64,000 nucleotides of DNA from Leptodontidium sp. MPI-SDFR-AT-0119 (Eukaryota > Ascomycota > Leotiomycetes > Helotiales > Leptodontidiaceae): the NCBI GenBank assembly GCA_020726505.1, contig JAHLEZ010000005.1, positions 1,116,001-1,180,000 on the forward strand, in the 5' to 3' direction. This document shows positions 35,401 through 54,401 of the stretch, one piece after another (position 1 is the stretch's first letter; each line of letters begins with the position of its first letter). Position numbers and translations under genes: made by a program. The notes beneath the pieces were generated by a model, which was not told where the DNA came from, ran no database searches, and saw only the letters and a program-made list of their open reading frames with translations.

Positions 35401-36191
35401 ATTTCGAAATCTTGGAATAAGCGATACATCCTCGCTATCAACATCATACTTCTATTGGTATGGATGATGGGTTTTGGCATTCCAGTAGAGCCAGACGAGT
35501 GGATTATGAACGAGTGTCTCTCCCAAACATCTCCCAAGTCTTGAAACCTAACTCTGTCAACCTGCTCTGATTCTGCAGCCGAGCCTTGAGGCAAAGACTC
35601 TATCATATCTAACTTTCGGGTGCCATTCGTATTCGTGCTGGCATTCTTTGAATCTGTGATGACTGCCAGTGCATTGCAGCTTTCAAGGAGATAGTGTAAT
35701 GCATTTGGTGGATTCGATTCGGCGAGCAGGAGTACCCTGACGCCAAGTTTTTGAAGTGCCAGTTGAGTGCAAAAGTACTCGATGCTCTTTCCAGCTCCAA
35801 GCAGGGCGACAGTTGGTTGTTGTTGAGAGATATTGGCTTGCTGAAGCTCATTCTCGAGTTGATAGGCATACGTCAGAGCAATCGTCTCGGTAACAGTATC
35901 GAACTCATCCCAAGTCATGGATTTGTATTCGGTCAATGGATCAGCTGTAGCTGGATAGAGAAATGCTTTCTGTGACTTGTAGACCGCACCATCGTGTCGG
36001 ACTAAAGCCGCCAAGCTGACGAGTCCTGGGTCCGAGTATCTCGTTGAGTGAGGGTCGCCGTGGAGCCACCAAAGCTCTCTCACTCGTTTCGAGGCATTGT
36101 GTGACGGAACAACCAAAGGATCAGAACATGTCGAGATGGACTTTCCAACAATAGAATCCGAAACAGGAGGATCAATCAACATGGGAGCCAT
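32488..36191 (-). CDS. NRPS-like adenylate-forming reductase (adenylation-thiolation-reductase)
   Basis: Four exons, 36191-35374, 35329-33633, 33544-33353 and 33290-32488, join in frame to 1,169 residues; introns are 44, 88 and 62 nt. The adenylation domain has core 'HSSGSTGMPKP' near 230-241, 'TYGSTEIGPP' near 378-387, and 'PITPKGNVKRKE' near 560. The thiolation domain (about 600-665) has 'LYDLGISSLTALSL' with the likely phosphopantetheine serine S633. The reductase domain starts with 'VLLTGCSGSLG' near 723-733, with 'FTSSIS' and the 'GYAQSK' YxxxK dyad in exon 3. Such enzymes activate a carboxylic or amino acid with ATP and reduce it to an aldehyde with NADPH. There is no condensation domain. 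The start at 36191 is the first ATG in frame. The substrate cannot be read from sequence. Confidence 0.93.
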
Positions 36192-38817
36192 AACGAACAA
36201 CAGGAGCAACAATACCACTCTATCCTGACAATGGACATAGAGAGACAACGTGACGAGATGGACATTAACTTCGACTAAAGCTGGGGACAACGACTACAAA
36301 AGAAGCCGTGAATAGCCTTGCATTCCTCTCTGAATCAAACGAATCTCCACACCCACCATCTGGGCCGGGCAATCATGGTCTCCTCCCTATTGGGAGGACC
36401 TCTTTGGTGTCTCATATCTAGCTTCGGAGACAAGATAGTGAGGGATGGAGTGATAGCGACTGCCAAGCTCACTTCACATCCTGCTGTGCTCCGCTCGCTG
36501 GCGAACGATTCAGAACGAATGAATTGCACGATAAGAACAAGACAAGGCAAGGCAAGACAAAGACGGCACCGACGGGCGAACATCCATATCCACTTGGATA
36601 CATGAGATCTGTGAGACGGCGACGGGCGGCTCTTTTTTGCGCGTCATGGATTTGAGGTGTCTTAGGTGGGGTCGGGGAAGATCCAAGGTTCGAAACTCTT
36701 TCTCTCTCCCCGCTGCATTCGAGGGAGGGGAGGCTACTCTTTCTCGCTCTCGGCGAATCATTCGGGCCGTTCGTCCTTTCTTGTTGCCCTACGGTTCGAT
36801 ATGCATGCATGCGGGGGAAGATCCTTGAAGCTGGGCGTTTTCTTGACGTTATCCGGACTCCTGGGATTTTGTCGACTAAGAGTAGTATCTGGGAGTGAGG
36901 AGGGGAGGGGTATCGGGCAAGGGTTTGTTAGCTGCGGGCAAGAGTCGTTGGGTCGTCCCGCTTTTGAGATGTGCATGTGGCGTAGCTGAAGTGAATCATC
37001 ACCGATTAAATGATAATATTTGAAGGGAGTGTTTCTTAAGGTGGTTGGGTTGACAAGGATGTTAGTTTCTGGTGGTGGTGTTTTGGTAGAGGCGAAAATG
37101 CCAAGGCGTCAAGATGCAAGTAGGCACAACGCCTGTTCCTGCAAAAAGGGAAATTAGAGATTCTTCACTATCTTATCATCGAAAAACTTGTGAGTGGAAG
37201 CAAATCTTGTAAACTTGATTTCTTCCTGCTTATCTATAGTTCCTCCCGCAACATCTCCCACAAAACTCGAGAATGGGGGTTGGTCACGTGTCGGTCACTC
37301 ATCAATCTCAAGTCCAAAAACGACAGATCCATGCCAGGATATATGGATTTGGGAGTGAATTATATTTCTATTTCGGGTCGTACTGTTTTGGTTTTCCTAC
37401 TAGCTTTAATGTAGCTGCTCGTTGCCTAGTTGAAATCTTCGGTGCCTGGGGTGAAAGCGGCATCGGAACATCGAATGCAGAGCTCGATAGCAATTGTTCA
37501 TAAATTTTTGCACGGCTCAATGGTTTCTCAAATCCAGTGTTTGGGTAATTATGTGGACCGAAGACAGCGGTAGATGTTGCTAGGATAACAGGGATACCTA
37601 AAAGCAGGAGATAGTCTTGGTCTCGCGTATTCAAGCGTCAGTAAACAACCTAGTTACAGCACAGGGTCCCACAAGATTGTGGAAATTCTTGAAGCTCTGA
37701 GTGCTGCTTTCTAAAAGCGACTCGCTGTGTGTACTTAACTGGTCACCTTGGTACGATTCCGAAATCGTGGACACACCTTCTTCCACCCTTGCATGCAAGT
37801 TTTTCTGCCCGATTAGGATCGCACGCTACAGTCCGCTGACTCAATTGATCCTTGACTTGAACGAATATAAATATGACAAAATGGAACTTATCGTCGCGCA
37901 AGCGCGTGGGGAGGAAACCTTGGAGTGAAGGAACATAGATAATGCTTAATAGATTTCTTGGAGGGTTATAAGGTAAGTGTCGTAGTGCTTATTCTAGGTA
38001 TGTATTTCTAGGTTAACATTGGCAAGATAAGCATGTAGCATCTGAAAGTCAAACTAAGTCCAGAGGAGCCCATCTTCAATATCGCCATGAAAGAAGCTAG
38101 GATTTACCGAATGGAGCAGAAAAGGTCGAAATCTGAGAATTGCTCATTGGATCTCGGCCTGTTTGTCTGGCCAGTTGAAGATGACTGAAATCTCGCACAT
38201 CATGTATAGAGCACAACCATGCACAAAGCCTCAACTTCCTTTGATGTCCATTTATCGGTTGTCAGATCCGAGTAACGAATCCACAGATCATGATCGTAAA
38301 GAGGGGGAGGGGCAAGCCGGGCAAGGCACTCTAGGGTCGGGCAAGCTCTGTCCCTGCATATTTTGCCCCAGGATTTGTTGGAACTATATGATATGTCGAT
38401 AAGCCTAGTGGGCCCTAAGGTATTCGATATCAGATTGTCGATATCGGTATCTGATGTCAGAAACATGATATCCCATTCTCGAAATCTAGACCCTGTCAAT
38501 GCCAAGATATGCAGATAGGGGAAGATGATGGATTGCCCAAGCAAGACGAGAGCTTGGGATGACGGCAAGGCTGAGACGAGATCGAAAGATCAGTCAATAC
38601 TGCCTCGTCAAACTCGCGAAAGGATAAGTGCACTCGTTTCCTTCTAAACCTTCCACATGCTGCGAACTTGTCTGTCATTGACTCTTTGAGTTTTTCTGCT
38701 TGTCAGCAAAAGTGGAGATCGCCACAGCGCACGTGCGGAGCAATACTCCTTTACACAGCTTCAACTTTTTCTTCCACCGCTGTTATCGGCTATTAGGCCT
38801 ACGGAAAGTTCAAGATC
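36192..38817. other. 2.6-kb divergent region between the A-T-R enzyme and the NCS1 carrier
   Basis: No gene is firmly supported. A minus-strand frame at 37634-37368 encodes a protein-like 88 codons following a good acceptor (CTTTTAG) but has no ATG or upstream exon. Another at 38678-38496 has an ATG but no family. Both are listed among weak observations. Confidence 0.4.
38783..38788 (-). promoter_or_regulatory. GATA-type site upstream of the NCS1 carrier
   Basis: TTATCG here is CGATAA on the other strand, matching HGATAR bound by AreA/NIT2 nitrogen regulators. It lies 30 bases before the ATG. A single six-base match is weak evidence. Confidence 0.3.
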
Positions 38818-40514
38818 ATGGCCCCGAAGATTGTTGAACGCTTCAGGTTGCACACCGAGCCGGGATCTTTTGCAAGTGCTAGTGGAGGATTGCCATCAAA
38901 CAAGGATCTCGACCCCGTACCTTTTGAGTCAGACGAGAGAACATGGACCTGGCCTTCACTTCTGGGGTTCTGGGTTGCGGAGGCTTTTAGTATTTCGATG
39001 TACCAAGTTGCCTCATCATCGATAACGAAAGGCTTGAGTCCTGGTTTGGCGATCACAGCTGTCCTCGTTGGGCATCTTCTGGTCTGCATTCCAGCGATGT
39101 TGAACGGCTACATTGGATGTATATATGGAATCAACTTTCCAGTGTTGATGAGATCGGCATTCGGTGTTTATGGAGCATATTTCGCAGTATTCGTTCGAGG
39201 GGTTGTGGCATGTATCTGTAAGTGTTGCCACTTCCCACACAGAACAGGCATTGACAGCTTCAGGGTTTGGAACTCAAAGTTTCCAAGGAGGTCAATGCAT
39301 TCAGACAATGCTGCAAGCGATCTGGCCGTCTTTCAAAGATTTCCCAAATCATATTCCAGCCAGTGCTCATGTCACCTCGGCGCAGATGCTGTGCTTCTTC
39401 CTCTTCATCATAATCCAGCTACCCCTACTTTGGCTGCATGTATCGAAGTTGAGATTTCTGTTCATGGCAAAGACGATCGTAATGCCTATTTTTGGAATGA
39501 CTCTGTTTATCTGGGCTTTGGTCGCTGGTAAGTCCTCTTATCCAAGCTTCGATATTAATTCTAACACAACATTCAGCCAGAGGATTTGGTCCAACTTTCT
39601 CGAAGGGAACAAACATCAAGGACGGGACACCAGTTGCAGTTGTCTTCTTTCAATGCGTAACGACCACAATCTCCCCCAAAGCTACTCTGGCTTTGAACAT
39701 GCCCGATTTCACTCGATACGCAAAATATCCTCGCCAAGTGTTTTGGACTCAGGCAGTTGGTCTCTGTGTCCTCGTCACACTCTGCGGTATTTTGGGAGTG
39801 ACAGTCACATCAGCTTGTCAAGAAGTATATGGCGTCACCACCTGGAATCCTCTACAAGTCTCTCTACTCTGGGAAAATCGCGCAGCGCAATTCTTCTCGG
39901 CACTCTGCTGGGCGTTCGCTGTGATCGGCACCAACATCTCAGCAAACTCGGTCTCTTTCTCCAATGACTTATCACTCTGGTTCCCCACATGGATCAATAC
40001 TCGAAGAGGCGCCTATGTCTGCTGCATCATATCCATTGCCGCAACACCGTGGAACATCCAGTACAGTGCTGCATCATTCTCTGCTTTCCTCGGCGGATAT
40101 GGCATGTTCCTTGGTCCGATAGCTGGAATAATGATGGCAGATTTCTGGGTTCTGCGGAAACGTCATCTGAACCTCGCTTCCCTCTATCGCCATCCTGATA
40201 TCTACAGTTTCTTCCACGGATTCAATCTGCGTGCGTTTGTTGCTTTCGTCTGTGGTATCGCACCTAATCTGGCTGGTCTAGCCCGAGCTACTGGGAATTT
40301 GAGCGTGCCAAAGACAGCAACATATGTGTATAGTTTGAGCTGGCTTATTGGGACGATCGTTTCCTTCTCGATTTACATACTAGTAGGAAAAATCTGGCCG
40401 ATGGAAGACAAGTTTGAAGAGGGCCAGGCGATGGACGGAACTGACGGCTCGAGTTTGGGGGTTAGTGACGAGGAGGGGAAGGGGATGGGAGAGAGCAAGG
40501 TGAAGGCATTTTAG
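38818..40514 (+). CDS. NCS1-family nucleobase/hydantoin-type permease
   Basis: Three exons (38818-39217, 39264-39527, 39577-40514) give 533 residues; introns are 46 and 49 nt. About twelve hydrophobic segments are seen, with a polar N-terminus and an acidic C-terminal tail. 'LLGFWVAEAFSISMYQVASSS' is the NCS1 first-helix signature. 'CIWFGTQSFQGGQC' follows the first splice; its W134 and Q138 keep the W-x3-Q pair which in bacterial Mhp1 contacts hydantoin. 'NMPDFTRYAKYPRQ' and 'TNISANSVSFSNDLS' are typical later motifs. NCS1 carriers import uracil, allantoin, cytosine, thiamine or hydantoins by proton or sodium symport at the plasma membrane. Its nearness to a hydantoinase set suggests a hydantoin or related cyclic ureide as substrate, which is inference. 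Confidence 0.9.
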
Positions 40515-41472
40515 ACTAGAAATGAACCACGAACAGTGTATATACCATTCATAATGGCTCTCAAATGACTGCAATATGTGCCCAATTACCCGAAGTTCCA
40601 ATGTTGCCTTCATGTCTCGGATGTCTTTCTCAGGATCCTACATACAAGCGATCTGGCTTCCCCGTTCAATACAAGCCAGCTAGTTCTAGGATCATGGTTC
40701 CAGGATATGCATCTTAGCATTGCTATAAACCATTCTGCAAGGTCGGAAACAACGTAAGAACAGCCTAAAGCCAAGTTCACAACACGTAGACCCAATCAGA
40801 TCTTCCGGGCCTCGCTCAAGCCCTCGCAGCTCGAGTCAATCCGAGAATACTCTAGCTTGCAACGCTTCCTCGCTTGCGACTCTTCGAATCTCCATAACCT
40901 CAAAGCCGCCGACGAGCAACTCGACTTATGCTGGAACAACGCCATTGAATCAAACTTCTCACAGATTGGGAAGTAAATACGGAAGCGAAGCATGTGAAGA
41001 GCGAGCTGGATACTCCATCGACAGTCTCGTTTGCTAGATCATTTCCTTTGCACCAATGACTACGAATAGACGAGGTCTTGTCATAACTAGAACTGGATTT
41101 TTGAGCATGTGTGTCTTGAATGTGAAGCTTGGAGATGTAGTCGCTCTTTTCATGGATTTCCTATGCTGCTAGCTCTGAGGCCAGGAACAGATCATTATGA
41201 AGCTGTTGGTGGGGTGTTTGTCGATGGCCTCGCGGATGGGCTTGTTTGGCTGAGTGCATTGCGGAGAGTCTGCTGAATAGAGCAACTTTCAGGACTCGGT
41301 AATGAAGCCTGTTCCATGTAGAAAGCTCTGATTAAAGAAGTCCAGATCCAGTATCAAGCGGCTTAGAGGTAGACCAAGATAAACACCACCAGTCCTTTTT
41401 TGGCATTAACAATACCCGGAGTCAGCAAATTCCCAGCCTTGTTCGTAGATGAGTACCTAGACAATCCCAGCT
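40515..41472. other. Convergent 3' region
   Basis: No supportable coding frame or repeat between the carrier and the unknown gene. Confidence 0.5.
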
Positions 41473-43245
41473 CTATGACGATTTCGTGAACGTCGCCGCA
41501 GTGCCGGGCATCTGAAAGCATTTTAAGCTATCCAGTTTTAGCCGCAGCAGAGAACTGCCAGTCTCCTCAACTACCAGTATACCATTCTTGAGATCGACCG
41601 TGAAACTTCTCGAGTGATGAGATGATCCCGAGTCTCTCTCGCCATGTGGGAACAGCTTGAACGTAGTCTCGCCAAGGACGGCTGCAGTGAGACCTCCGGT
41701 GCTTGACATCGAGATCTGCGGCAAGAGTTGCACAGAGCCGTATCGCCAGGTGTAGTTCGTACACCCGGGTGTACCTTCAAACATGATCTCCTTCCCGGAC
41801 GTGCTCGTGAACAAGGTGAACAGTCGCTCGAAAGTGTCAGTACCCCTTGGGTTTGCGCTCCCTTGCTCGAGAGTTTCTCCTATTGTAGATACCACCAGGA
41901 TGTGAAACAGGTCAGCTCTCGTGAGCCTTTCTACGAGCTTGACTACGTCCGGAGCAGGTGTAGATGCAGTGTCAGCGACCTGGATGGCGTTTTGCATATC
42001 GAGCTGCAACTGGCGTTCGTCCTCACTGAATGGAGAGCCGCCCGGTACAAGACTGTCGAAATCCACGGGTCCAATTAGAGACAAAGCCTGGACTATGGAG
42101 TTGGGAATTAGATGGCCAAAGTTGGAAGTAGGGGATTCAAGAGGAGTGGAGAGACATATTGATGACCAGAGTTCGTAGAAACGGAGGAGTATGTTCGGCT
42201 GTGATGCGAATTAGCAGATGTTTTCTCCTTGCTCGACATGGGGAAAATGACGTACACATGCCCTACAAAATTCTTCGAAATATTTCCAGGAAATAGATTG
42301 CGCATCTTTAAGTGTGTACTGGATCAATGCCTTTGCCAGACGTGCCGAATATGAGGCTTCCTCACCGCTATTAACGAAAAACGGTCTTTCAATATCTCCG
42401 CTTCGTTTGACATCCATGTAGTAGATCAAACCACATCTCCATGAGGTATTGTTGATACGCAAGAGTAAAACAAGTTGCAATAGAATCTGTAAGTCAAGTC
42501 TTAATAGAGCAATTGAAGATATCTTTTCTTGACGGGGCGCGGCATTCAGAAGTAGCCGTCTCGCCACTTGCTTTAGGTCTTCTTCATGCGAAACAACCGA
42601 GATATACGGCTCTGGTCGCGTGAGAGTGATGACATCGATGAGCTGTTTTTCGATAGTTTCCATCCGGCCCGTAGTATTGAATTCTCTGGATTGCTCTTCC
42701 TCTTCAGCGGAGAAAGTCCCGAGGCTGTTGAACATCAACGACGCGAGACGAGGATATTTTGCAGCCCACGATTTCTCGATTCTTCCGACCAGCTCCACGC
42801 CCCTCAGAGGAAGTAAATTGTAAGCTAGGATAAACCCATCTTCATCAATGTGTTCGTGATATGATTCTGGCCGTCCAGAGTCCGTGGGCATGTTTTCGAT
42901 CCATGGATATCCAGCAAAGTACACAAAGACTCGCCAAAGTGTTGGAATAAAGGCGCCGAGTGCTGCAGCTCGTTCGGTGGTCATGATCCATTTCTTGAGG
43001 CAGTCTTCATCCCATCGCAGCAGGCCATCATCGTTCGCAATGGCATGCTGCTGGAAGATTCGTTTCGAATGATTATGATGTTCATCGTCATTTAACTTCC
43101 CCAACGCATCCATGAGCTCTGTCGATAAGGTTGATCGGGTTAAGTCATCGTAGTACTCTTTCAAGGCTCTTTCCGATGAGTCCCAAGCTCGTTGATGAAG
43201 CAAGGTTCCAATGCCTTCTGTAAAAAATCGCCGAATTTGAGACAT
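41473..43245 (-). CDS. Uncharacterised fungal protein, 571 residues
   Basis: Two exons, 43245-42256 and 42198-41473, join in phase 0 across a 57-nt intron (GTACGT donor, CACAG acceptor) and give 571 residues. I do not recognise the family. The protein has no signal peptide or clear membrane helix and is largely helical. 'HIDEDGFILAYNLLPLRG' near 133-150 is an acidic, loop-like motif. 'YELWSSICLSTPLE' follows the splice, and the C-terminal third looks like beta strands ('SFTVDLKNGILVVEETGSS'). A protein with an N-terminal helical half and C-terminal sheet could be a TLDc-like scaffold, but I cannot support that. It lies between the carrier and the hydantoinase, so it may belong to that cluster or be an unrelated passenger. 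Confidence 0.75.
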
Positions 43246-43805
43246 TGCGAAGAAGAGTTGAATCTCAATGGGGAAAAGGAGACGTGTTGCGCCATAAAGA
43301 CCAATTAGTCGAAAAGGCGCCCTTCAATGAACCAAAATGACACGTTGCCAAGTTTGGAGTATTTTGTGAATGGTAAAGACGCAGTCTAGCCGTTATTGTC
43401 GGAAAGGAATTGTAGGATCGGAGAACTGGGACTGCGCATTAGTTCAAAGTATTTCTTCAAAGTGGCAAAGAAGGAGGAAAGGGATTGGTTCAATAAGAGC
43501 GTGGAAACGTCGTGTTATAAATACAAAAGTGGCCAATCAAAACTGTTTGCATCACGTGAGAGATGTTAAAAGCTGGACACAAGTACCCTCAAATATTGCA
43601 ATTAGTACTAGAGGCAAACCCCAAATAAAAAGGGTATCAAACTTAAGACCCAATATAGTTTTTGCTAGAGATATATAATAAACTGCAATTAATAACATCC
43701 CTCAAAAGCTAAAGAGCAATTGTTCATAAATGAAGAAGAGTCAGGGTTTACAAAAAGAACAAAAAATGAAGCACAAGACATTTGAACATCTCAGGTCGGA
43801 GGTAT
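43246..43805. other. AT-rich gap before the tRNA gene
   Basis: AT-rich promoter side of the minus-strand 571-residue gene. A run of six A at 43761-43766 (T6 on the minus strand) could end pol III transcription of the tRNA, though it lies about 40 bases beyond the tRNA 3' end. Confidence 0.4.
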
Positions 43806-43877
43806 TGAACCACACCCGATTTGAACGGATAACCTTTCGATCTGGAATCGAACGCGCTGCCGTTGCGCCAGCGGTCC
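43806..43877 (-). tRNA. tRNA-Trp (anticodon CCA)
   Basis: A 72-base cloverleaf folds on the minus strand. The acceptor stem is GGACCGC paired with GTGGTTC (two or three G-U pairs), with discriminator A. The D stem is GCGC/GCGC around AACGGCA; the anticodon stem TTCGA/TCGAA holds loop TTCCAGA with CCA; the variable loop has five bases; the T stem ATCCG/CGGGT encloses TTCAAAT. No intron interrupts the anticodon arm, although Trp tRNA genes of several fungi have one. It decodes UGG. Confidence 0.88.
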
Positions 43878-44448
43878 TTGACCTGATGAGTTTCTCATGT
43901 TTGCATGCTGACTTTTCCTTATTGGATTCTATTGTGGAGCGAGGGGAGGGAGGTACAGATTTTGTTCGGCTCGGCGGTTGAAGTTGTGGGTCAGGTGATG
44001 AAGTGGATCCCTAGAGAGTTTGGAAAGTAGGCGACGGTGAGATTGTGTCTAAGGTTAAGTTTAAATGAATTAGATGTTTCATTTGTTGTGGGATGAAAGA
44101 GGGTCGAGATACAGAGGCTTCAGAGCAACTGGGATCTTTAAAGCGTTTGTGGATCATTGGGGAACCCATTTCACGGGCTTGTGCGATAAACTGCCCGAAT
44201 AAGTTCTAGACGTTAAAATTGCGTAACTTGCAAGTCAGCTTCAGACGTCCTGTCTTATGCGGTGTATGAAGGAAAATAAAGTCAGTGGCGTCGAAATATG
44301 TACTTGCAAACGAAAGAGTAAACACTCGTAAGCGAGCCGCGCTAGTGCATCACATCAACAATTAAAACAACGTAAACTTCTCCATTTGCGCGAGCAGGTC
44401 ATTTTCTATGTCTAATAACATTCTCTCCAAGTTTTTCAAGTATTCCTC
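43878..44448. other. Gap between tRNA-Trp and the hydantoinase stop
   Basis: AT-rich, no open frame of note; likely 3' region of the hydantoinase gene. Confidence 0.5.
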
Positions 44449-46584
44449 TCATCGCCAATAATCCCTCTCACCACTCAACATACCGGTAGCCTCCTGCCCC
44501 ATCTTTCCAACCACAATCCTTCCCTTCCCCCTGACCAAAAACTTTCCATCCTCAACACCACCAACCACACCACCGTTATCCCGATCCCAGACAACCTTTC
44601 CTCTCAAGATCGTATACCTCGGCCAGTTCTTCACAGTCATGCCTTCATACGGGGTATAATCAACACCATGATGAAGCGACTTCTGCTCAATAACCACCCC
44701 TCCCTCAACCTCACTCTCCGGATACCAAATCACCAAATCGGCATCGCATCCCGGCGCAATATTCCCCTTCACGCCCTCTAGCCCATACAATTTCGCTGGG
44801 TCCGAACTCGTCAGCTGCACGAACCGCTGCAGACTCAATCGCGAAGTCTTCTCTTGTCCCGCATGACTGAACAGCAACGGTAATCTGGTCTCGACACCAG
44901 GTACTCCATTCGGGATATGCTTGTACGTCATGACCCCATCTTTGAGTCCAAGTTTCTTGCCTCCAGAGTGATCGTACGTCGAAGGCGCATGGTCCGAGCT
45001 AAAGGTCGTGAAAGTTCCGTTGGCGATCCCGCGCCACATCGCATCCAAGTCTTTGGGGTGGTGGCGGAGAGGAGGACTACACACGCATTTCGCACCTTCG
45101 AATAGATCTTGTTCATTACCCTTCAGTCTCTCGCTTAGGAGAAATAGATACTGTGGACAGGTCTCTGCGTGGATGGGCAACATCCGGGTCTGCGCTTTCC
45201 GAACATGCTTCATTGCAACCTCGGAACTCATATGCACAATCAAGATTGGCGTATCTGTCAGCTCCGCCAAGCTGATGATGCGGTATGTCGCTTCGTTCTC
45301 GGCGATTTGTGGTCGTGAGATGGCGTGGAAATACGGCTCGCTATGACCGGCTGCTTCAAGACGTGATGTAATGAGCGAGATAATGTCGCTGTTCTCAGCG
45401 TGGACCATGGCTGTGAAGCCCAGAGACCGGGCAGACATCAAGACGTCAAGGATCGCTGCATCTCCCAGCTTGAGGGGTTCGTAGGTCATGTACAACTTGA
45501 CACTTGTGATGCCTTGCGACATCAGGATTGGCAGTTCTTTGCTCATGATCTCGGGAGTTGGGTTCGTGAGGATGAGATGGAATCCATAATCGCAATAACT
45601 CTGGTTTTTAGCCCGGGTATGGTAGTCTTCGACTGTGGGTAGAACGGTCGTTGCGGTCTTGAGCTGAGAGGCAAATGCTAGAACGGAAGTTGTGCCTCCT
45701 GCGATAGCGCTTCGGGTTCCTGAAATGAAGTTGTCACCTGTAGGAGAGTTGTCTTGAGCAAAGTGGACATGGGAATCGACACCTCCTGGTGTGATATATG
45801 CGCCTTTGGCGTCGATGATCTTGGTGCTTTCACATCGTGGTAGGGATGTTCCTAGGCAAGATATGTTGCTGCCTATGATACCGATTTCAACACCAAGCGG
45901 CAAAACATCGCTGGCTGTGACCTGGAAGTGTTAGGTAAGGTCTCGCTTGGCGTGCTGTATCGTAAACAAAAAGGGGATGTGTTCAAAGCTCTTAAGCTCT
46001 CGCTCAAAGCAGTCGGTAGATGTCATCTGCCGCAACAAGATTTATGGCTCTCATCCCTCATTCGAGTTAAGTTCAACAAGAAAAGAATATCGCCAAAAGA
46101 AAAGGGCAAAAAACATACAACAGTGGGTATTCGCTGGTGGTCACCCACCCAACTACTAATCCACCGATCTGAAGCTTGTGTATGGCAGAGCGGACGGGAT
46201 GCCCAATGTCTCTTCAGTCTATGGTCGTATGTGACGGTCTTTGACTTATCTGGAGCTTTATTCCAGTAGGCTTGAAGTGCTCAACAGACGAGCAGCATAA
46301 GCAGCCAGCCCAAGCAGCCCAAGCACCTCGCTTACTTTGGAAGGGGAAAAGTTCTTTGCTGGAAGGCTCAAGTAGAATAGAGTGCGTAAGGAGAACAGAA
46401 TAAGCAGAAGTATTGATGCCTCTCTGAGCTGAAAAGAAGAAGTTTCGAAGCACTATCCTCGCTTGAGTACCCCCAAACATCAAACAAAAAGAAAAACAGA
46501 GCCATGTAATCAAGTCAGAATTCCAAAAAGTAAAAAGCACAAACTCACAATAATGCCATTGGTAACAATCGAATCAAATCCCAT
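44449..46584 (-). CDS. Cyclic amidohydrolase: dihydropyrimidinase / D-hydantoinase
   Basis: Exon 1 is only 12 codons (46584-46549, 'MGFDSIVTNGII'); exon 2 is 45921-44449. A 627-nt intron (GTGAGT donor, CCAG acceptor) joins them in phase 0 to 'TNGIIVTASDVLPLGVEIG', matching the family's N-terminal strand. The product has 502 residues. All metal ligands are present: 'DSHVHF' (H63, H65), the carboxylated lysine in 'SVKLYMTYE' (K154), 'MVHAEN' (H186), 'LIVHMSS' (H242) and 'SSDHAPS' (D322). The enzyme opens dihydropyrimidine or 5-substituted hydantoin rings to N-carbamoyl amino acids. It faces the carbamoylase across a shared promoter. Allantoinase is less likely because the gene pairs with a D-carbamoylase and has dihydropyrimidinase-type spacing. 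It is probably a cytosolic tetramer. Confidence 0.93.
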
Positions 46585-47624
46585 CTTGTGCTTCTCTGCT
46601 CTACTAAATTAGTAAAACCAAAGTCACCTAGTAATATTCACGACAACAAGTAAAGCAAACCAGAAAGACAGAGCAGAGCCTCGAAGCAAAAACACCCAAG
46701 ACCCCATCCTGCTAACATACTAGCTACAAAGTACAAATCTCTTTGTCATCTGGATCAAGGCCGTCTCATACCATCCTATCTATCGATATCTCTAGTCTTA
46801 CCAACACTTTCCACGTTCACAGCTCATCGTTCATCGTTCATCGTTCATCCCATCCCATCCTCCGCCCACCAACCATCCAATCCCATTGCCAATCCTGCAA
46901 TTCTCGGCTCCTGCACCCAAGTTGGCCGTCGGGCAAGCAAGGATGCATTAACTGGCCCCGCTCATCTGGCCGCTACTGCACCCCGATAAGCACTTGTTGT
47001 TGTCCTCGCTCGCTTATTATCCCTTCCCCCTTTGAGCATCAACTGCAGCTTGCATCTCAGCCCGCTTTCAACAATGGGATATGACCTATCGACCTATCTC
47101 ACGGCAATCACAAGGCCAACTCTGCTCATGGCCAACGATGATCAAGATCCGCCGCCTCAAAATCGAGATCTAGGGCCACCTTACCGGGTTCCGGGACGGG
47201 GATCGAGCCACGTTCTGCTCGCTGGCCTTCTTCTGGCCGGGAATGTCTGCATTGTTTCTTTCCTACCTTACTTAGTCTAGGTAACGTAGCTTGGTTGGAG
47301 ACGGGGACGTGACGGCATGGACGGCGGGGGATGAACGAGGCTGAGAATTCGTGGGACCTCACTATCTTTGGCCTTCAGGAATCTGGATAGGATTGGATAG
47401 ACTGGCTGACGGATATCCTATTCGTCCCACTCTCTTTTCCTCCTACTCTTCTGTGTTGGTTGTTTTTAAGCCATTGATACCCGTCTTCTTCATTCCTCGA
47501 GCTGAGTGTGAGTTACGCGGCTTGTTGTTTTTCTAAACACCTCCACACCCTCACACATTTTGACGTCTTTCAAGCTTCATTGTGATTTGCTTCAGAACGA
47601 AGCCAACACACAACCACATCCACC
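46585..47624. promoter_or_regulatory. Divergent promoter region of the hydantoinase and carbamoylase
   Basis: 1.04 kb lie between two divergent starts of consecutive pathway enzymes. It includes three TCATCGT units near 46824-46844 and overlapping GATA-type sites (listed separately). Several CGG/CCG half sites occur ('CCGGGTTCCGGG' near 47187), which a Zn2Cys6 factor could use. No coding frame is supported. Confidence 0.55.
46776..46785 (-). promoter_or_regulatory. Overlapping GATA-type sites
   Basis: CTATCTATCG contains two overlapping HGATAR matches on the minus strand (AGATAG and CGATAG). Paired GATA sites are the usual form for AreA/NIT2 control. Two further single matches lie at 47086-47091 and 47094-47099. 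Confidence 0.4.
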
Positions 47625-48674
47625 ATGGCACGCACACTCAAACTCGCCGCCGCCCAAATGGGCCCCGTCCACCTCACCTCCCCCCGCGCCGAAACGCTCA
47701 CCCGGCTCCTCACCCTCCTCCAAACCGCTTCCTCACTCGGCGCACAAGTCGTCCTATTTCCCGAAACAGCGCTCACAACCTTCTTCCCGCGGCACCTCAT
47801 CACCTCCCCTGCAGAACTAGAGACATATTTCGACTCGGCCTCCACGCTCCTCACATCGCCTAACACGGCACCCCTTTTCAGCCTCGCTAAAGAACTAGGC
47901 GTTGATATCGGTATCGGCTTCGCTGAGCGCGACGATGTTGACGGGAAGGGGTATAACACATCCGTGTACTTCTCAGCAAGCAAAGGCGAGATCGTAGCTA
48001 AATACAGGAAAGTCCACCTCCCCGGCACGAAAGAGCCGTTCGAGAATCCAGACGCGGTCAACCAGCTCGAGAAGCGGTATTTCGAGCCGGGGAACTTAGG
48101 GTTCAAAGCATTCCGCGCGCCAGGACTGGTCAGTGGTGTGGTTAAGAAGGGGAGTCATGATGTTGAGGGGGGTGTTAAGGGGAGGGGAGATCCGATTATG
48201 GGCTTGATGATCTGTAATGATCGGAGGTGGGTGGAGGGATGGAGATGTTATGGGTTGCAGGGCGTGGAGGTTGTGCTGTGTGGGTATAACACTGCTGGGT
48301 ACGCGCCTGATCTGTGGGGCACGAGGAAACCTATGACGCCTGAGGAAGCTGAGACGGATGCGGTGTTCCATCATAAGCTGTGTATGCAGGGGAATTCGTA
48401 TATGAATAGTTGTTTTTCGGTCAGTGCTGCGAAGGCGGGGTTGGAGGATGGGAAGTATGATTTGATTGGGGGCAGTTGTATCACGTCGCCTGAGGGACAT
48501 GTTTTGGCTGAGGCGAAGACGAAAGGCGATGAGATCGTTTTTGCAGAGGTCGACTTGGAGGATTGTAGGCAGGGGAAGGAGAAGACTTTTGATTTCGCGA
48601 GACATAGGAGGATTGATCAGTATGGTCCGATTACGGTCCAGACGGGTGTTATAGAGCCTGAACTTTTGGAATAG
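47625..48674 (+). CDS. N-carbamoyl-D-amino-acid hydrolase (D-carbamoylase, nitrilase superfamily)
   Basis: One exon, 349 residues; the ATG has an ACC before it. The nitrilase triad is clear: E47 in 'LFPETALTTFFPRH', K129 in 'AKYRKVHLPGTKE', C197 in 'MICNDRRWVEGWR'. 'LEKRYFEPGNLGF', 'CGYNTAGYAPD', 'SYMNSCFSVSAAKAGLEDG' and 'IDQYGPI' are hallmarks of bacterial D-carbamoylases rather than of eukaryotic beta-ureidopropionase. An insert of about 25 residues ('GVVKKGSHDVEGGVKG') before the Cys region makes it longer than the roughly 304-residue bacterial enzyme. It splits N-carbamoyl-D-amino acids to D-amino acid, CO2 and ammonia. It is divergent from the hydantoinase and convergent with the regulator gene. 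It lacks introns while most neighbours have them. Confidence 0.94.
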   Translation: MARTLKLAAAQMGPVHLTSPRAETLTRLLTLLQTASSLGAQVVLFPETALTTFFPRHLITSPAELETYFDSASTLLTSPNTAPLFSLAKELGVDIGIGFAERDDVDGKGYNTSVYFSASKGEIVAKYRKVHLPGTKEPFENPDAVNQLEKRYFEPGNLGFKAFRAPGLVSGVVKKGSHDVEGGVKGRGDPIMGLMICNDRRWVEGWRCYGLQGVEVVLCGYNTAGYAPDLWGTRKPMTPEEAETDAVFHHKLCMQGNSYMNSCFSVSAAKAGLEDGKYDLIGGSCITSPEGHVLAEAKTKGDEIVFAEVDLEDCRQGKEKTFDFARHRRIDQYGPITVQTGVIEPELLE

Positions 48675-49038
48675 AAGACGATAGAAATCAAGATGAAGAT
48701 ACACAAAGAACACCGAGTTGGATCAGATCAAAAGGACGATGGGAAGAGAACAAGGAAGTAGCTCTCTGCTTGCTTGCCAAGTTGATAGTCTGATGTTCAA
48801 AGGAAGGATGGAAATGCTTCAATTAGGTAGTCAAGAGCAACAACGATAACTCACAACACCAAAAAGTAGGCGAAACTAACCATTGAAGTTGAAAAGCAGG
48901 GATGATATACAATATCACAATTGCAGACTACATACAACAATAAAGCCAGTCCCGCGGCAACGTACTTGAGCTTTCCCATCCGCATTCGAAGCCACTCCCA
49001 TAATCGCTTAACTCCTCACCAACTCCTTGCCCATAACC
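48675..49038. other. Convergent 3' region of carbamoylase and regulator
   Basis: About 360 bases with no coding content; shared 3' ends. Confidence 0.5.
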
Positions 49039-51327
49039 TCACCCAACAGGCGGATGACTCGCCCCGTTCTCCAATAACAGACCGTCTAATCGTAACAATC
49101 CTAAACTCATCAATCCATTCCCTGTACTCCCGCTCCCTATCCGCATAGCCCATCGCCAGCGTGCTACTAGACCGTTGATCTCGTTCGTTTCGATGTCGTT
49201 TTGGGATGTGACAAGGAGTTGCATGAGGAAGGAAGAGGCGATGGCGAAGTTGGCTCGTGACCCTGCATCTCGTTAGTTTCGCTCAAAGAGGGGGGGGGGG
49301 GGAAGGGGGTTACATACATGAATGCCAAAACGCATCTAGAGCGCCTCTTCCTAGGTTCTCGACAAACTCCACGACTTCCTTAGCACATTCTTTCGCGCCA
49401 GCTCTTACAGCAAGTCTGCCTTCTACTATGCTACGATCTTGCTCTTCTGCACTTGACAAATTTTCCAATGGCCGTAGAAGAGCTCGAAAGAGTGTCATCG
49501 TGGCAACGATATACGCCAAGGAGAGCGAAGGGTTTCCACTTATCCTAGTGTCCACACGGCCAGCTTGTCGCATGGAAAGTGAAGGCGGTAGGGAGTCTTT
49601 CCAGTCCGTTAGACCTTTACGCAGCGAGCGAGCAAGATCCAAAGATAGGGTGAAGTTCTTGGATGTCCTCTGCGTTGCTCGAATAGTGTAGTATGAGTCC
49701 ATAATGTCGCTTAATATGATGGTCAATTCCGTGAGAAGTCGGAAATGGTTGCTGTCCGCTTCTGGTTCCAAGAACCCAGGGATAGTATTAGAGTTTAGGT
49801 CGAGAGACGGCGGTTCAAGATCGGAATCAAGAAGTGGAAGGACATCAAAATCATCTGTTTTGATATGACTTGGCATACCGGCACCTAAGGACGCCCATTT
49901 GTCCATGATGAAGACGCCGTAGAAGAGCCGTTTTCGTAAAGTCATCTCCCAGGTCGGTATGCTGCTCCAGTCACTACATTCTTTCTGAAGCCCAAGCGAA
50001 TGCGCTAAGCTGACTGTCCATCCGACCAGGCTCATTTTCCAAGGCGTATCTGTCGTATAGCGGTTCGTTGGCGCTCTTTGCAAGAGCAAAAGACAAGCTT
50101 GCAGAGTTGCTAGTCTTGGCGTGTGGAGCTCTTGAATGACAGAGAGCCATGTTATTCGAAACAGCTGATGTGAAGGTGGAGGTGAGTGAATAAGAGTGGT
50201 ACTGAGTAGATCATCGTATAGCATAAATGGCAGAGAGGTTGCGTATATAGCCGATAGAACAGAGAGTGGCAATGTTTGCAGTACAGAGGGTGAAACAGCT
50301 CCATTTGGGCAAAGCTCGCTTTTGGACAAGATAGGAAAATATGGGTATACAAATCGCAAGAAGAGACCAATCAACCGGAGAGCCTCTTGCTCGGTGAACA
50401 TACTATTAACGTCCATGCGTGACTTCTGCAAGACATCGTCTTCGATACGCGGTTCGCCCTTCTGTGCTAGGCTGTCATCCGCCAGCATGAAGACAACCGG
50501 TGGCTCCCCCTTCTCGCCTGACAGGCCATCTTGGTTCATAGAATTTTTGATCCGCCGATATGTCAACTTCGAAATCGTACACTCATCATTTGTGTCATAC
50601 TTGTAGTATTTCAACAAGTACGGATTTGACTCCCCCGTTTCTCCTATGAACCGTGCAGAGCGTGTTGTCTGCGAGTCCAATGGCGCAATACGTATTCCTC
50701 CAGACAGCAAGTATGGATCCATATTAAATATCGGAGAGGCATCGGTCTGGCTCAGGTGTAACTGGTCGGGAGAGGAATGGGCAGGGAGTCCTTCGTGGCC
50801 ATTTAGTCCATTGTAGGACTGCTCGTGATTGAACTGCGCGATGAAGCCCGGACTCAATGGGGTCGCTGAGACATCGAAGTGCTGGATTGGAGCTGGAGAA
50901 GCACGAGCGCATGTCAGCCCCATTCTTCGCAAGCAAACGTGGTTAACTTCATCCCATCTATCGCAGCCCATCTCACGTCTTCGCCGCACCACGTCGACTT
51001 ACCTGAAGCTGCCATGCCACTAGCCTCGCCATTGCCAATCGATGGATTGGGTCTCCTCTTCTTCTTTGGCCGCTCGAGAAAGGTGCAGTCTCGGCCGTGA
51101 GCTGAACAGAGATTACATGGCGGGCTCTCGTCGATTTTGCAAGCTACCTGCCTTGCGCGACAGAAATCGCAGGGCCTGTATTTGCGAGACTTGTAGGATC
51201 GAGGACCAGGCTGCACGGGCTGGACTGGCGGCGGAGGTGATGTTAGTGCCAGACCATGGCCGTTGTAGAAATCGGTGGGCGAGACCGACTGTTGGGCGTG
51301 GACATAATGGTGTGAATGTGAGTCCAT
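49039..51327 (-). CDS. Zn2Cys6 (Gal4-type) transcription factor with fungal-specific domain
   Basis: Three exons, 51327-51003, 50892-49318 and 49262-49039, give 707 residues. The binuclear zinc cluster is at C53, C56, C63, C71, C74 and C81 ('CDFCRARQVACK' then 'CNLCSAHGRDC', spacing C2-C6-C7-C2-C6). A basic linker 'RPKKKRRP' follows. The middle homology region has 'LFLRFVYPYFPILSK', 'TPWKMSLVGWTVSLAHSLG' and 'RLFYGVFIMDKWASLGAGMPS', typical of the fungal_trans domain. The short last exon carries 'WSRANFAIASSFLMQLL'. The start at 51327 is the first ATG; the open frame extends upstream only with GTG. It lies between the carbamoylase and the racemase and is divergent from the racemase, so it is the obvious candidate regulator of the hydantoin genes. 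A run of 13 C on its strand lies in the second intron. Confidence 0.93.
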
Positions 51328-52008
51328 GGCGGAGAACAAGTGAGGTTGGGATGGCGAGTCTCCGTACAGCACAGCACAGCACAGCAGGAAATTGTCGAGG
51401 CGCTGCTCCCCTGCCTGCAGCTTACGCCTGTGCTGGGAGCTGGTCTGGGGCTCCTCTCCTGGTGTAGTAGCGTACTGTGGTGGGTGATGTTCGTTCGTCG
51501 CGCAACTCTCCTTTCCCGCTCAGTATCCCTCACTTCTCTTCACAATCAATCGAGGCCGCAAACTTCAGGGTCCATTGTTTGTCGAGATAGGTAGAAGATT
51601 GCTTGATTGATTGAGGAAAAGCGCGCCGAGCGCGGGGCAGCGTGAAGCCACGAAGACCCAGCCAGTATTCGGCGCTATTATTATTGAGGATCAGTCACTC
51701 GCAATTCAACGGCCAAAGTTGCCCGTTATCTGGGGCAACGACGGGCGAAAGATGAGATGGAGATGAAGATGGGGATGGATGGATGCTTCCAATTTGGGGG
51801 TTCGAGGAAGAGCATTCCATGGTGTGGCTGGCTGGCATGTGTTCTTTTTGGTAAAGAGGTGCGACTGTCTTAGAAATATTTCTTTTCGCAAAATCCAGAG
51901 AGTGATAATTATTGCATCTTTCCTTCAATTGGTCTGCACTCATTTCTCCTTTACTTTTTCTCGCCTACTTGTCACTCGTCAAAATACCCCTTTTCAACCG
52001 CCCCTAAA
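51328..52008. promoter_or_regulatory. Divergent promoter region of the regulator and racemase
   Basis: 681 bases between divergent starts. GATA-type sites occur at 51726-51731 (TTATCT) and 51903-51908 (TGATAA), the latter about 100 bases before the racemase ATG. GC-rich CGCGCCGAGCGCGG-like DNA near 51621 contains CGG half sites. No coding frame is supported. Confidence 0.5.
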
Positions 52009-52806
52009 ATGGCCGACTCGATCTCGCTTCCGTCAGTAACCGGGTCATCAACCAAAACAATCAACATTCTCCTCATCAACCCCAATGGCACATCATCTAT
52101 GACCGATGCCTGTCTCAGATCTCTGGCAGATACCCTCCCTCCACACTGCACAGTTACAGGATTCACATCTCCTCACCCAACTCCATCAGCCATTGAAGGT
52201 CATTTGGACGGCGTTCTCTCTTCAGCGGCAGCAATCCGAGCAGTGGTACCAATTGCGTCCAAATACGACGCATTTCTCGTAGCTTGCTTCAGCGCACATC
52301 CTCTCATCAACGCCCTGAGAGAGGAACTTTCCGGCCCTGTCATCGGCATCATGGAAGCTGCTCTCTACTCTGCTAGAATGCTGGGTGGTCGACTTGGCAT
52401 TGTTGCCACTGGAGGAAGAAGTAAAGTCATGCACGAAGATGCCATCCGGTATTACGGTCTCGATGGCTTCTCCGTTGGATGTGAGACGACAAATCTGGGG
52501 GTTCTGGAGCTGGAGAGATTACCTAGAGACAAAGTCCTGGGCTTGGTTGCTGAAGCTGCGAGAAGACTGGTACAGGAGAAGGGCGCCGATTGTATTGCTC
52601 TGGGCTGTGCAGGGATGACTGAGATGAAAATCAGATGTGAAGAGGCTGTAGGCACCAAAGATGCTACCGCTCAGGTCATTGATGGTGTTGGTATTGGTGT
52701 CCAAATTTTGATTGGGTTGGTTAGGGAAGGTCATGTTACAGCGAAGGGTGGTATTTTCAGGAGTTCTCAAGATGGACGGAAGGCTAGAGGACAAGATTGG
52801 TTGTAA
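52009..52806 (+). CDS. Hydantoin racemase (Asp/Glu/hydantoin racemase superfamily, Dcg1-like)
   Basis: One exon, 265 residues. 'NILLINPNGTSSMT' near 19-32 is the family's start motif. The two catalytic cysteines are C93 in 'LVACFSAHPL' and C200 in 'IALGCAGMTE'. 'GIMEAALYSARMLGGRLGIVATG' links them, as in bacterial hydantoin racemases and yeast Dcg1. The enzyme interconverts D- and L-5-substituted hydantoins so that a D-selective hydantoinase can use both forms. It is adjacent to the cluster regulator across a shared promoter. The first 16 residues are an extra polar extension. Yeast DCG1 lies in the allantoin (DAL) cluster, so allantoin racemisation is a possible alternative. Confidence 0.93.
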   Translation: MADSISLPSVTGSSTKTINILLINPNGTSSMTDACLRSLADTLPPHCTVTGFTSPHPTPSAIEGHLDGVLSSAAAIRAVVPIASKYDAFLVACFSAHPLINALREELSGPVIGIMEAALYSARMLGGRLGIVATGGRSKVMHEDAIRYYGLDGFSVGCETTNLGVLELERLPRDKVLGLVAEAARRLVQEKGADCIALGCAGMTEMKIRCEEAVGTKDATAQVIDGVGIGVQILIGLVREGHVTAKGGIFRSSQDGRKARGQDWL

Positions 52807-53678
52807 AATGAGATATCTTGAATCTAAATTTCCTGCAAATCCTTACTCTGAACTTCCGATGCGATGAATATAGCCCCCTTCGTTCTTGTGCACAACACGA
52901 CTGAGGTTCAGAAAGATGGTAGTGCAGCTCAGCCTTGCAACATCGAACGTGCACTGTACGTGGCACTCTGCAGACCCTATCACATTGTAAAACAAGACAG
53001 ATTAAAACCCTCGTGTGGGAATATCAAGTGTTGTCACTGCCATTGTCAATGGAGCTGGAAGGCTCTGGCTAATAGGATGTGTACCGGCCCAGACAACCTT
53101 GCTAAGCGAATTCATCAGCCACAACCTTTCCGAACCTTCAAGATAACTATCTCACGCGAAGATATGCTGCAGCCCACCACAACTCCTATTGCCCGGCGAA
53201 GACCCCACCGAGAGCGCGTCAATATGGGCAAGGATAAAGTAACTTCGTGGGACAAGACATCGCAAAAAGTCCAATCCAAGTCTACAATCCCCCCAATGGA
53301 AGATATCTACACCAGAACACGCCAAGTCACACTCCGTCGTATATGCACAGAATCACACCGACTCATATATCCATTCTTACCCCAAAGATACCGTCCAAAG
53401 CACCTTCTTTTCCAGGGAGTCTGACCGGTTCTTGGCATCAAGTTCCACTGCTGAGCTGCTGAGCAACAGTTCTAAAAATCACCTCTGCGATAAGAAACGT
53501 TCACTTGAACAGCAGAAACCAATCAAACCTAAACACAACATATCCATATGCAGAGAGAAGCGTACATTTAAAATGTGGCCCGAATTGCTTTCGACAGAGC
53601 CGGGCGAGAGGAGGAAGCTTAGCCTCGGATACTGCCATGATTGAACAGTGGACTGTAGGTACCTCGAGAAGTCCTCGC
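52807..53678. other. Convergent 3' region of racemase and 2EXR gene
   Basis: Open frames at 52864-53424 and 53505-53774 carry no recognisable domain and have poor composition. Nothing is supported here. Confidence 0.45.
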
Positions 53679-54401
53679 TCAACTACGCCTACGCCGTATA
53701 GTGGATACCGGGGACGGGAGGCATTCGAGCCTTCCTCGGCGAATTATAGCCAGCTTGAAAACCCCAAGGCGTAGAGATACTTGCGGCCGGGGCCTGGCGT
53801 ATCCTGCCAAACCATCTCGCGTCAAATACTGCCGCTCCCGATTCAAAATTCGAAGCTGCTCCTGCACTTCCTCACTATCTTCCTTCACAACAAATGTAAC
53901 TTCCTCTATATTAGGGAAGTAGAAGAGGTCAACGTGGAGTGACCAGGGTGTCGTCGTACGAGTTAATGGTTCGAACTCTATAGCGAGAAAGCGCAAGCAT
54001 TCGGGATGATGAATTTTCCACAATTGGGTTAGGATGCCTTCCGGTCCCCAATCTCGGATCCAGCAATCCTTATCGTTGCGAACAAATAGCGTGTCGATCT
54101 CGGGGTTAAAATAAATGTTAGAAGTGCAGGTGCCTTGGGTATTTTGAAAGATCAAGTGGCCTGCACATCGAGCGGCGTCATATCCGATGCTTCGAGCCTC
54201 GTGACATAAGTTGACTATTATCGGCCGCGGGGTCGGCGAGAATCGAGGACACCAGTCGTGATCTTGACTGTAGTGATCGTGCTTTGCTGTCCTGACTTCA
54301 ACAACGCGCGCGTCTTGCGTAGTATAAAAAAAGGCCCAGATAGCCTGCCGAAGTTCGAGGCTCAGGCTAGCCCATCCTGTCGTCGCCGTATCCGACTCCA
54401 T
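53679..54401 (-). CDS. 2EXR-domain fungal protein
   Basis: One exon, 240 residues, from an ATG at 54401. 'WASLSLELRQAIWAFFYTTQDARVVEV' spans the 2EXR motif: Leu-x-x-Glu-x-Arg followed by Ile-Trp and a basic strand. 'PIIVNLCHEARSIGYD' and 'NIYFNPEIDTLFVRND' are the next conserved segments; the central part has 'LRFLAIEFEP'. Proteins of this sort are abundant in filamentous ascomycete genomes, often in gene-poor accessory DNA, and their function is unknown. The C-terminus is basic. The gene is divergent from the lectin gene, 188 bases away. Confidence 0.85.
   Translation of the reverse strand: MESDTATTGWASLSLELRQAIWAFFYTTQDARVVEVRTAKHDHYSQDHDWCPRFSPTPRPIIVNLCHEARSIGYDAARCAGHLIFQNTQGTCTSNIYFNPEIDTLFVRNDKDCWIRDWGPEGILTQLWKIHHPECLRFLAIEFEPLTRTTTPWSLHVDLFYFPNIEEVTFVVKEDSEEVQEQLRILNRERQYLTRDGLAGYARPRPQVSLRLGVFKLAIIRRGRLECLPSPVSTIRRRRS

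Follow-up and report, generated by a model that had tools for sequence, protein, structure and literature searches.

Bacterial hyu operons comprise the genes of a D-hydantoinase, a D-carbamoylase, and a hydantoin racemase, and cascades of a hydantoinase, a carbamoylase, and a racemase from bacteria are known and in industrial use. Here, we analyzed a stretch of 64,000 nucleotides from Leptodontidium sp. MPI-SDFR-AT-0119 (Helotiales, Leotiomycetes), named the window (contig C45, positions 1116001–1180000, in a genome of 77 Mb and 69 contigs). Between its positions 38818 and 52806 lie the genes of an NCS1-family carrier, a dihydropyrimidinase/D-hydantoinase-type amidohydrolase (HYD), an N-carbamoyl-D-amino-acid-hydrolase-type enzyme (CARB), a Zn2Cys6 regulator, and an allantoin/hydantoin-racemase-type protein (RAC) (Table 1). 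The locus is most plausibly a fungal equivalent of the D-hydantoin systems of bacteria: we estimate the probability that it is a fungal catabolic cluster leading from hydantoins to D-amino acids, with HYD, CARB, and RAC as its core, at about 0.62. As in the hyu operons, three like reactions are predicted, the enzyme families are shared, and the genes stand side by side, whereas the fungal genes have their own promoters and HYD carries an intron.

The yeast DAL cluster, with its DAL4 permease and DCG1 allantoin racemase, is likewise a fungal nitrogen cluster that unites a carrier with a racemase of the superfamily of RAC, as given in the accessible part of PMC3646786. The window differs from it in containing no allantoicase gene, matches to this enzyme being found on contig C2 only, and in encoding a D-carbamoylase-type enzyme instead; nor does the cluster hold the DAL pair of allantoinase and allantoicase, as HYD stays below the allantoinase cut-offs. 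OpaE (PDB 9qbx) is, according to the available portion of PMC12661438, the only well-characterized fungal member of the racemase family. For the Asp/Glu/hydantoin racemase family, the part seen of PMC5169069 reports 17 transfer events, 15 of them with fungal acceptors, and puts forward the use of uncommon nitrogen sources as a hypothesis. No fungal hydantoinase cluster is described in the titles and abstracts of the papers listed from the mainly open-access literature, a scope that leaves most subscription papers outside, and within this scope the statement of a first-pass annotation that no fungal version was known to it stands; the linked trio appears to be undescribed so far, its genes already bearing individual names in databases. 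The accessible parts of PMC4782317, PMC5737690, PMC9505000, PMC5635595, PMC12735256, and PMC5640708 deal with single listed genes or with oxoprolinase-type hydantoinases and not with the HYD/CARB/RAC set, and those of PMC9585004 and PMC4195764 contain no description of this set.

Family placement and catalytic sites of HYD, CARB, and RAC

CARB is the most clearly placed of the three enzymes. Among its solved relatives, N-carbamoyl-D-amino-acid hydrolases fill the first 11 places (E values from 1e-69 to 1e-66), and the match that follows them is at 7e-13. The first chain named beta-ureidopropionase, 3ivz ("Nitrilase | Beta ureidopropionase", E 7e-13), is weaker than the best matches by about 56 orders of magnitude. 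The triad E47, K129, and C197 expected of a D-carbamoylase-family enzyme is present and, together with R200 and R201, unchanged across 13 aligned rows, and the motif CNDRRW occurs in 120/120 listed homologs. NCBIfam returned for CARB only other nitrilase-type families, far under cut-off, and a search of the Leptodontidium genome itself found no close second copy, the next matches being at 1e-4. A public protein of the same strain that bears the name of a D-carbamoylase (P0003, 319 aa) is 91% identical to the 349-aa CARB frame; being the shorter of the two, its gene model may contain a false intron.

HYD exceeds the cut-off of the D-hydantoinase model TIGR02033 (421.8 bits, cut-off 393.25) and stays below that of another dihydropyrimidinase model, PRK13404 (556.1 bits versus 647). 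Its solved relatives include 2fty (E 1.4e-106) and 1nfg (E 4e-96), and the metal site expected of a D-hydantoinase/dihydropyrimidinase-family enzyme is complete (H63, H65, K154, H186, H242, and D322). With the Lachancea kluyveri dihydropyrimidinase (2fty), HYD is homologous across most of its length at about 40% identity; it differs in belonging to a separate, supported clade whose gene neighbors are of the D-carbamoylase type and the racemase type.

RAC has both catalytic cysteines of a hydantoin racemase in place, C93 and C200, and fold comparison gives two allantoin racemases as its best structural matches; NCBIfam returned no family for it. A comparison with OpaE, for which the position offset was inferred and the alignment made without OpaE itself, gives RAC an Asn and a Met at allantoin-racemase positions 12 and 17, and Ala-Thr at 118–119, where OpaE-like enzymes are hydrophobic (available part of PMC12661438). 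With Asn, Ala, and Thr at the equivalents of KpAllR 12 and 118–119, RAC would thus not have, given this offset, the hydrophobic pocket of an OpaE-type peptide epimerase.

The first-pass annotation had reported in this interval five genes, two divergent promoters, and intact catalytic residues in the three enzymes. All five genes were recovered as spliced models that match protein families, both promoters were located, and every catalytic position was found in the translated models; the kinds it had assigned to CARB and RAC are borne out by the solved relatives of the former and by the relatives and the fold comparison of the latter. Splice sites were set by hand from the DNA alone, the Zn2Cys6 motif of the regulator was recognized by eye, and the choice of residues that count as catalytic follows general knowledge of the families.

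The enzyme trio is kept together in distant fungi

Linkage was read, for the best 120 of the 7998 (CARB), 7886 (HYD), and 363 (RAC) hits, from serial gene numbers compared by eye and from contigs of equal size recurring across the three lists. Serial gene numbers generally run along contigs. Among these listed homologs, 14 of the 15 same-genome pairs, in 10 of 11 genomes, are at most two numbers apart, so that with one exception, discussed below, the genes are linked and kept together as in a hyu-type system. CARB and HYD are adjacent in each of the three genomes that list both (Claussenomyces 003943/003942, Cirrosporium 008513/008512, and Trypethelium 004883/004882). All eight listed CARB and RAC pairs lie within two numbers: Rhynchosporium graminicola 003426/003424, Coleophoma 07940/07939, Scytalidium g2660/g2662, Claussenomyces 003943/003944, Cirrosporium 008513/008514, Xylographa parallela 003701/003702, Lambiella 006491/006490, and Pycnora 000327/000328. 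The same holds for three of four HYD and RAC pairs (Claussenomyces, Cirrosporium, and Cudoniella g12825/g12827), and in Claussenomyces and Cirrosporium HYD, CARB, and RAC are consecutive, in the order of the window minus the regulator. Records stemming from different strains were omitted from the count, namely those of Parastagonospora nodorum (HYD HBI42_133440, RAC HBH69_131560), Friedmanniomyces endolithicus (CARB LTR91_018023, HYD LTS16_012638), and Elasticomyces elasticus (CARB LTR56_022585, HYD LTR66_006520).

Thirty contig sizes recur in at least two of the three lists and five in all three. This amounts to 40 pairwise matches (16, 16, and 8), where 100 shifted offsets gave 0.07, 0.10, and 0.03 on average and about 0.2 matches are thus expected overall. 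A shared megabase contig is by itself no proof of adjacency, and only the longest contig was recorded per protein cluster; 14 of the 30 recurring contigs measure at most 66 kb, and one of 9,614 bases carries all three genes. Aureobasidium pullulans and Lasallia pustulata, present in two lists with differing contig sizes, were counted neither way. Two or three of the enzymes are linked in five classes of the Pezizomycotina, namely Leotiomycetes, Xylobotryomycetes, Candelariomycetes, Lecanoromycetes, and Dothideomycetes; class membership was looked up in one or two taxa per class. In Sordariomycetes, to which we take Fusarium pseudoanthophilum to belong, a 65.7-kb contig common to HYD and RAC of this species was found and nothing else.

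Conservation of the neighborhood had been set beforehand as a check, and the three enzymes passed it by gene numbers and by equal-size contigs alike. The five-gene unit of the first-pass annotation has to be narrowed: no gene number separates CARB from RAC in Claussenomyces, Cirrosporium, Coleophoma, Xylographa parallela, Lambiella, and Pycnora, and the regulator therefore falls outside the old core, which, judged by gene numbers, is HYD, CARB, and RAC. One number is skipped between CARB and RAC in Rhynchosporium and Scytalidium, which leaves room for a regulator.

Relationship to bacterial hyu operons

The HYD tree separates 21 fungal rows (19 of the window clade, a second HYD-type copy on contig C7, and the yeast enzyme) from 27 bacterial rows with a support of 100/99. 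The window clade is itself supported at 100/99, apart from the yeast dihydropyrimidinase and the C7 copy, the grouping of these two being weak (91/66, with long branches). Eleven bacterial rows were already in the first tree, ten from CARB loci plus 1nfg; the 16 added on rebuilding are 15 from a search of 398 Pseudomonadota genomes, 79 of which have a HYD match at 1e-60 or better, plus L126, the same gene as L105. Bacterial relatives in these 398 genomes are up to 54% identical to HYD and thus closer than the yeast dihydropyrimidinase. The CARB tree splits 15 fungal from 30 bacterial rows at 100/100, and the RAC tree places the fungal rows with two allantoin racemases, opposite 17 racemases from bacterial CARB loci, also at 100/100; because long branches meet in this tree, the fold comparison is the stronger ground for grouping RAC with allantoin racemases. 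The trees speak against a recent block transfer of a hyu operon from the Pseudomonadota, the phylum sampled for a bacterial origin, and a transfer that is old, or whose donor was of a different phylum, may have occurred.

The notion that bacteria keep the same parts holds in part. Within the best 80 of the 543 bacterial loci encoding a CARB relative, ten also encode a HYD relative (38–47% identity), and seven of these ten a racemase-superfamily gene as well. The fungal locus departs from them in its separate HYD and CARB clades, in its carrier, since an NCS1 gene occurs in none of the 80 loci within the flanks covered, and in its racemase, RAC being on the allantoin-racemase side and the CARB-linked bacterial racemases on another, with the same caution about long branches. 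Two bacterial loci, L032 (Roseomonas) and L036 (a Rhodospirillales metagenome-assembled genome), carry beside the CARB relative an amidohydrolase that is nearest to hydantoin-5-propionate amidohydrolase, below cut-off; L032 also carries LysR, HbpS-like, TctC, and second CN_hydrolase genes.

Carrier, regulator, and promoter sites

The carrier passes the TIGR00800 cut-off (358 bits versus 353.1) and matches Mhp1 at E 7e-15, its residues W134, Q138, and N345 aligning with Trp117, Gln121, and Asn318; the three contact residues kept are also common to other NCS1 proteins. Yeast DAL4 is an NCS1 member as well. About ten further NCS1 loci exist in the Leptodontidium genome, and the carrier is only a putative member of the functional unit. 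The regulator, which may be akin to the TamA/Dal81 regulators, has two paralogs in the genome at 29–30% identity (E < 1e-39) and weaker ones besides. The HYD/CARB promoter contains 15 GATA sites, compared with a mean of 6.4 in shuffled sequence (1 of 500 shuffles as high), and six HGATAR sites against 2.6 (26 of 500), a number equaled in 49 of 606 window stretches. A control stretch behind RAC holds 15 GATA sites as well (shuffle mean 5.6, 0 of 500 as high). The excess is therefore unspecific, and GATA enrichment was dropped as a nitrogen-regulator signal.

Proposed pathway

We infer the substrate, the stereochemistry, the roles of the carrier and the regulator, and the catabolic purpose as follows. 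The NCS1 carrier may import a 5-substituted hydantoin, both forms of which RAC would interconvert; HYD would convert it by ring opening to an N-carbamoyl-D-amino acid, from which CARB would release the D-amino acid, carbon dioxide, and ammonia. The entire racemic pool would thereby become usable as nitrogen, and the Zn2Cys6 protein may, in the Leptodontidium lineage, control these genes. That the product is a D-amino acid is predicted from the enzyme family. Because the trio is found clustered in several, distantly related fungal classes, it looks like an old nitrogen-scavenging pathway.

More tentatively, and with doubts outweighing confidence, this pathway may be ancient, predating the split of at least five ascomycete classes and assembled, independently of the hyu operons, from dihydropyrimidinase and allantoin-racemase lineages of the fungi themselves and an early-acquired D-carbamoylase; among hydantoinase clusters it might then be the first to be described from a eukaryote, and fungi might be active producers of free D-amino acids. 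A trio kept across classes would explain what many fungal proteins currently labeled "dihydropyrimidinase," "allantoinase," or "carbon-nitrogen hydrolase" do in nature, would provide eukaryotic enzymes for D-amino acid production, and bears on why fungi retain so many Asp/Glu/hydantoin racemases.

Alternative readings

Several observations weigh against a hydantoin-degrading cluster. The closest solved relative of HYD is the yeast dihydropyrimidinase 2fty and not a D-hydantoinase, and none of the HYD residues examined separates the two activities. Among the 120 listed HYD homologs, some of which are fragments, the first histidine pair is found in 100 and the HAEN motif around H186 in 82, and public records name two listed orthologs "related to DAL1-Allantoinase." RAC is closest to allantoin racemases. 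HYD and RAC are distant from each other in Elsinoe batatas (002630/007869), and in 70 of the best 80 bacterial CARB loci the flanks covered contain no HYD relative of at least 38% identity, some of these contigs being short.

The resemblance of RAC to two allantoin racemases, its best structural matches and, with the caution due to long branches, its nearest solved neighbors in the tree, would fit a side route for allantoin (5-ureidohydantoin), in which RAC is an allantoin racemase, HYD forms allantoate, and CARB decarbamoylates allantoate in place of allantoicase. The carrier likewise scores on allantoin permease models, far under their cut-offs (225.7 of 620 and 188.7 of 800 bits). We nevertheless consider this route unlikely: the best allantoinase model gives HYD 219.4 bits (cut-off 357.85), about half its score on the D-hydantoinase model, and CARB is of the D-carbamoylase kind, whereas the allantoate amidohydrolase models describe M20 enzymes. 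Moreover, an allantoinase-like gene on contig C23 (32–35% identity to HYD), the allantoicase on C2, and a second racemase on C17 (35% identity to RAC), which we take to be Dcg1-like, sit elsewhere in the genome. The position of 2fty as the best solved relative of HYD, on the same fungal side of the tree, would in turn suit reductive pyrimidine breakdown, with HYD as dihydropyrimidinase and CARB as carbamoyl-beta-alanine hydrolase. This is the least probable of the readings considered, as it leaves the racemase without a role and as CARB appears from its sequence to group with D-carbamoylases, far from the first chain named beta-ureidopropionase, 3ivz, and not to be the beta-ureidopropionase/beta-alanine synthase of the PYD pathway. 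A second HYD-type gene (C7:1710839–1712108; identity to HYD from 46%, over 480 positions, to 51%), moreover, has at a distance of less than 5 kb an M20 amidase that passes the hydantoinase/carbamoylase model TIGR01879 (278.5 bits, cut-off 204) and presumably belongs to the superfamily of yeast beta-alanine synthase. The C7 pair and the allantoicase thus offer other candidate seats for the breakdown of pyrimidines and allantoin.

It is also improbable that the trio acts on hydantoins from the fungus's own metabolism or from decay, for example on hydantoin-5-propionate derived from either histidine or ergothioneine, with glutamate as the product, and not on foreign hydantoins. Three amidohydrolases beside bacterial CARB relatives bear on this: two score best on the model of ErtD, the hydantoin-5-propionate amidohydrolase (481.6 and 449.3 bits, cut-off 600), the third is a dihydroorotase (638.4 bits, cut-off 482), and the highest ErtD score of fungal HYD itself is 197.3 bits (cut-off 650). 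The degradation of 5-substituted hydantoins to D-amino acids remains our preferred reading of the cluster.

At the C7 locus (C7:1704691–1712108), P450-like and hemerythrin-like open reading frames (ORFs) lie between the HYD copy and the M20 amidase, and an FAD-monooxygenase-like ORF lies behind the two genes, all three named by eye. The locus is possibly a second cluster, of an L-type or for pyrimidines.

Features of the cluster and its surroundings

Table 1. Coordinates of the cluster genes, promoter regions, and intervening features in the window
Feature	Position	Strand	Description	Evidence
NCS1-family carrier	38818–40514	+	533 aa; exons 38818–39217, 39264–39527, 39577–40514	PF02133, 360 bits
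Gene without Pfam family, between carrier and HYD	41473–43245		two pieces	Pfam search
tRNA-Trp, between carrier and HYD	43806–43877			
HYD, dihydropyrimidinase/D-hydantoinase-type metal amidohydrolase	44449–46584	-	502 aa; exons 46584–46549, 45921–44449; one 627-bp intron	
HYD/CARB divergent promoter region	46585–47624	.	1040 bp	gene models
CARB, N-carbamoyl-D-amino-acid-hydrolase-type, nitrilase superfamily	47625–48674	+	349 aa, single exon	PF00795, 148 bits
Zn2Cys6/fungal-specific transcription factor	49039–51327	-	707 aa; exons 51327–51003, 50892–49318, 49262–49039	PF04082, 86 bits
Regulator/RAC divergent promoter region	51328–52008	.	681 bp	gene models
RAC, allantoin/hydantoin-racemase-type	52009–52806	+	265 aa, single exon	PF01177, 177.5 bits

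Upstream of the carrier, pieces of a nonribosomal peptide synthetase-like reductase are found at 33403–36293 (-), with AMP-binding, phosphopantetheine-site, and NAD_binding_4 parts. Downstream of RAC, the Pfam search assigned no family to the ORF at 52864–53421, which is followed by a 2EXR-family gene (53679–54401, -), by a 774-aa open frame (56137–58458, +) combining NDC10_II and GCR1_C domains, a pairing that we take to be known from Crypton-type elements, and by a cytochrome P450 piece (60166–61386, +).

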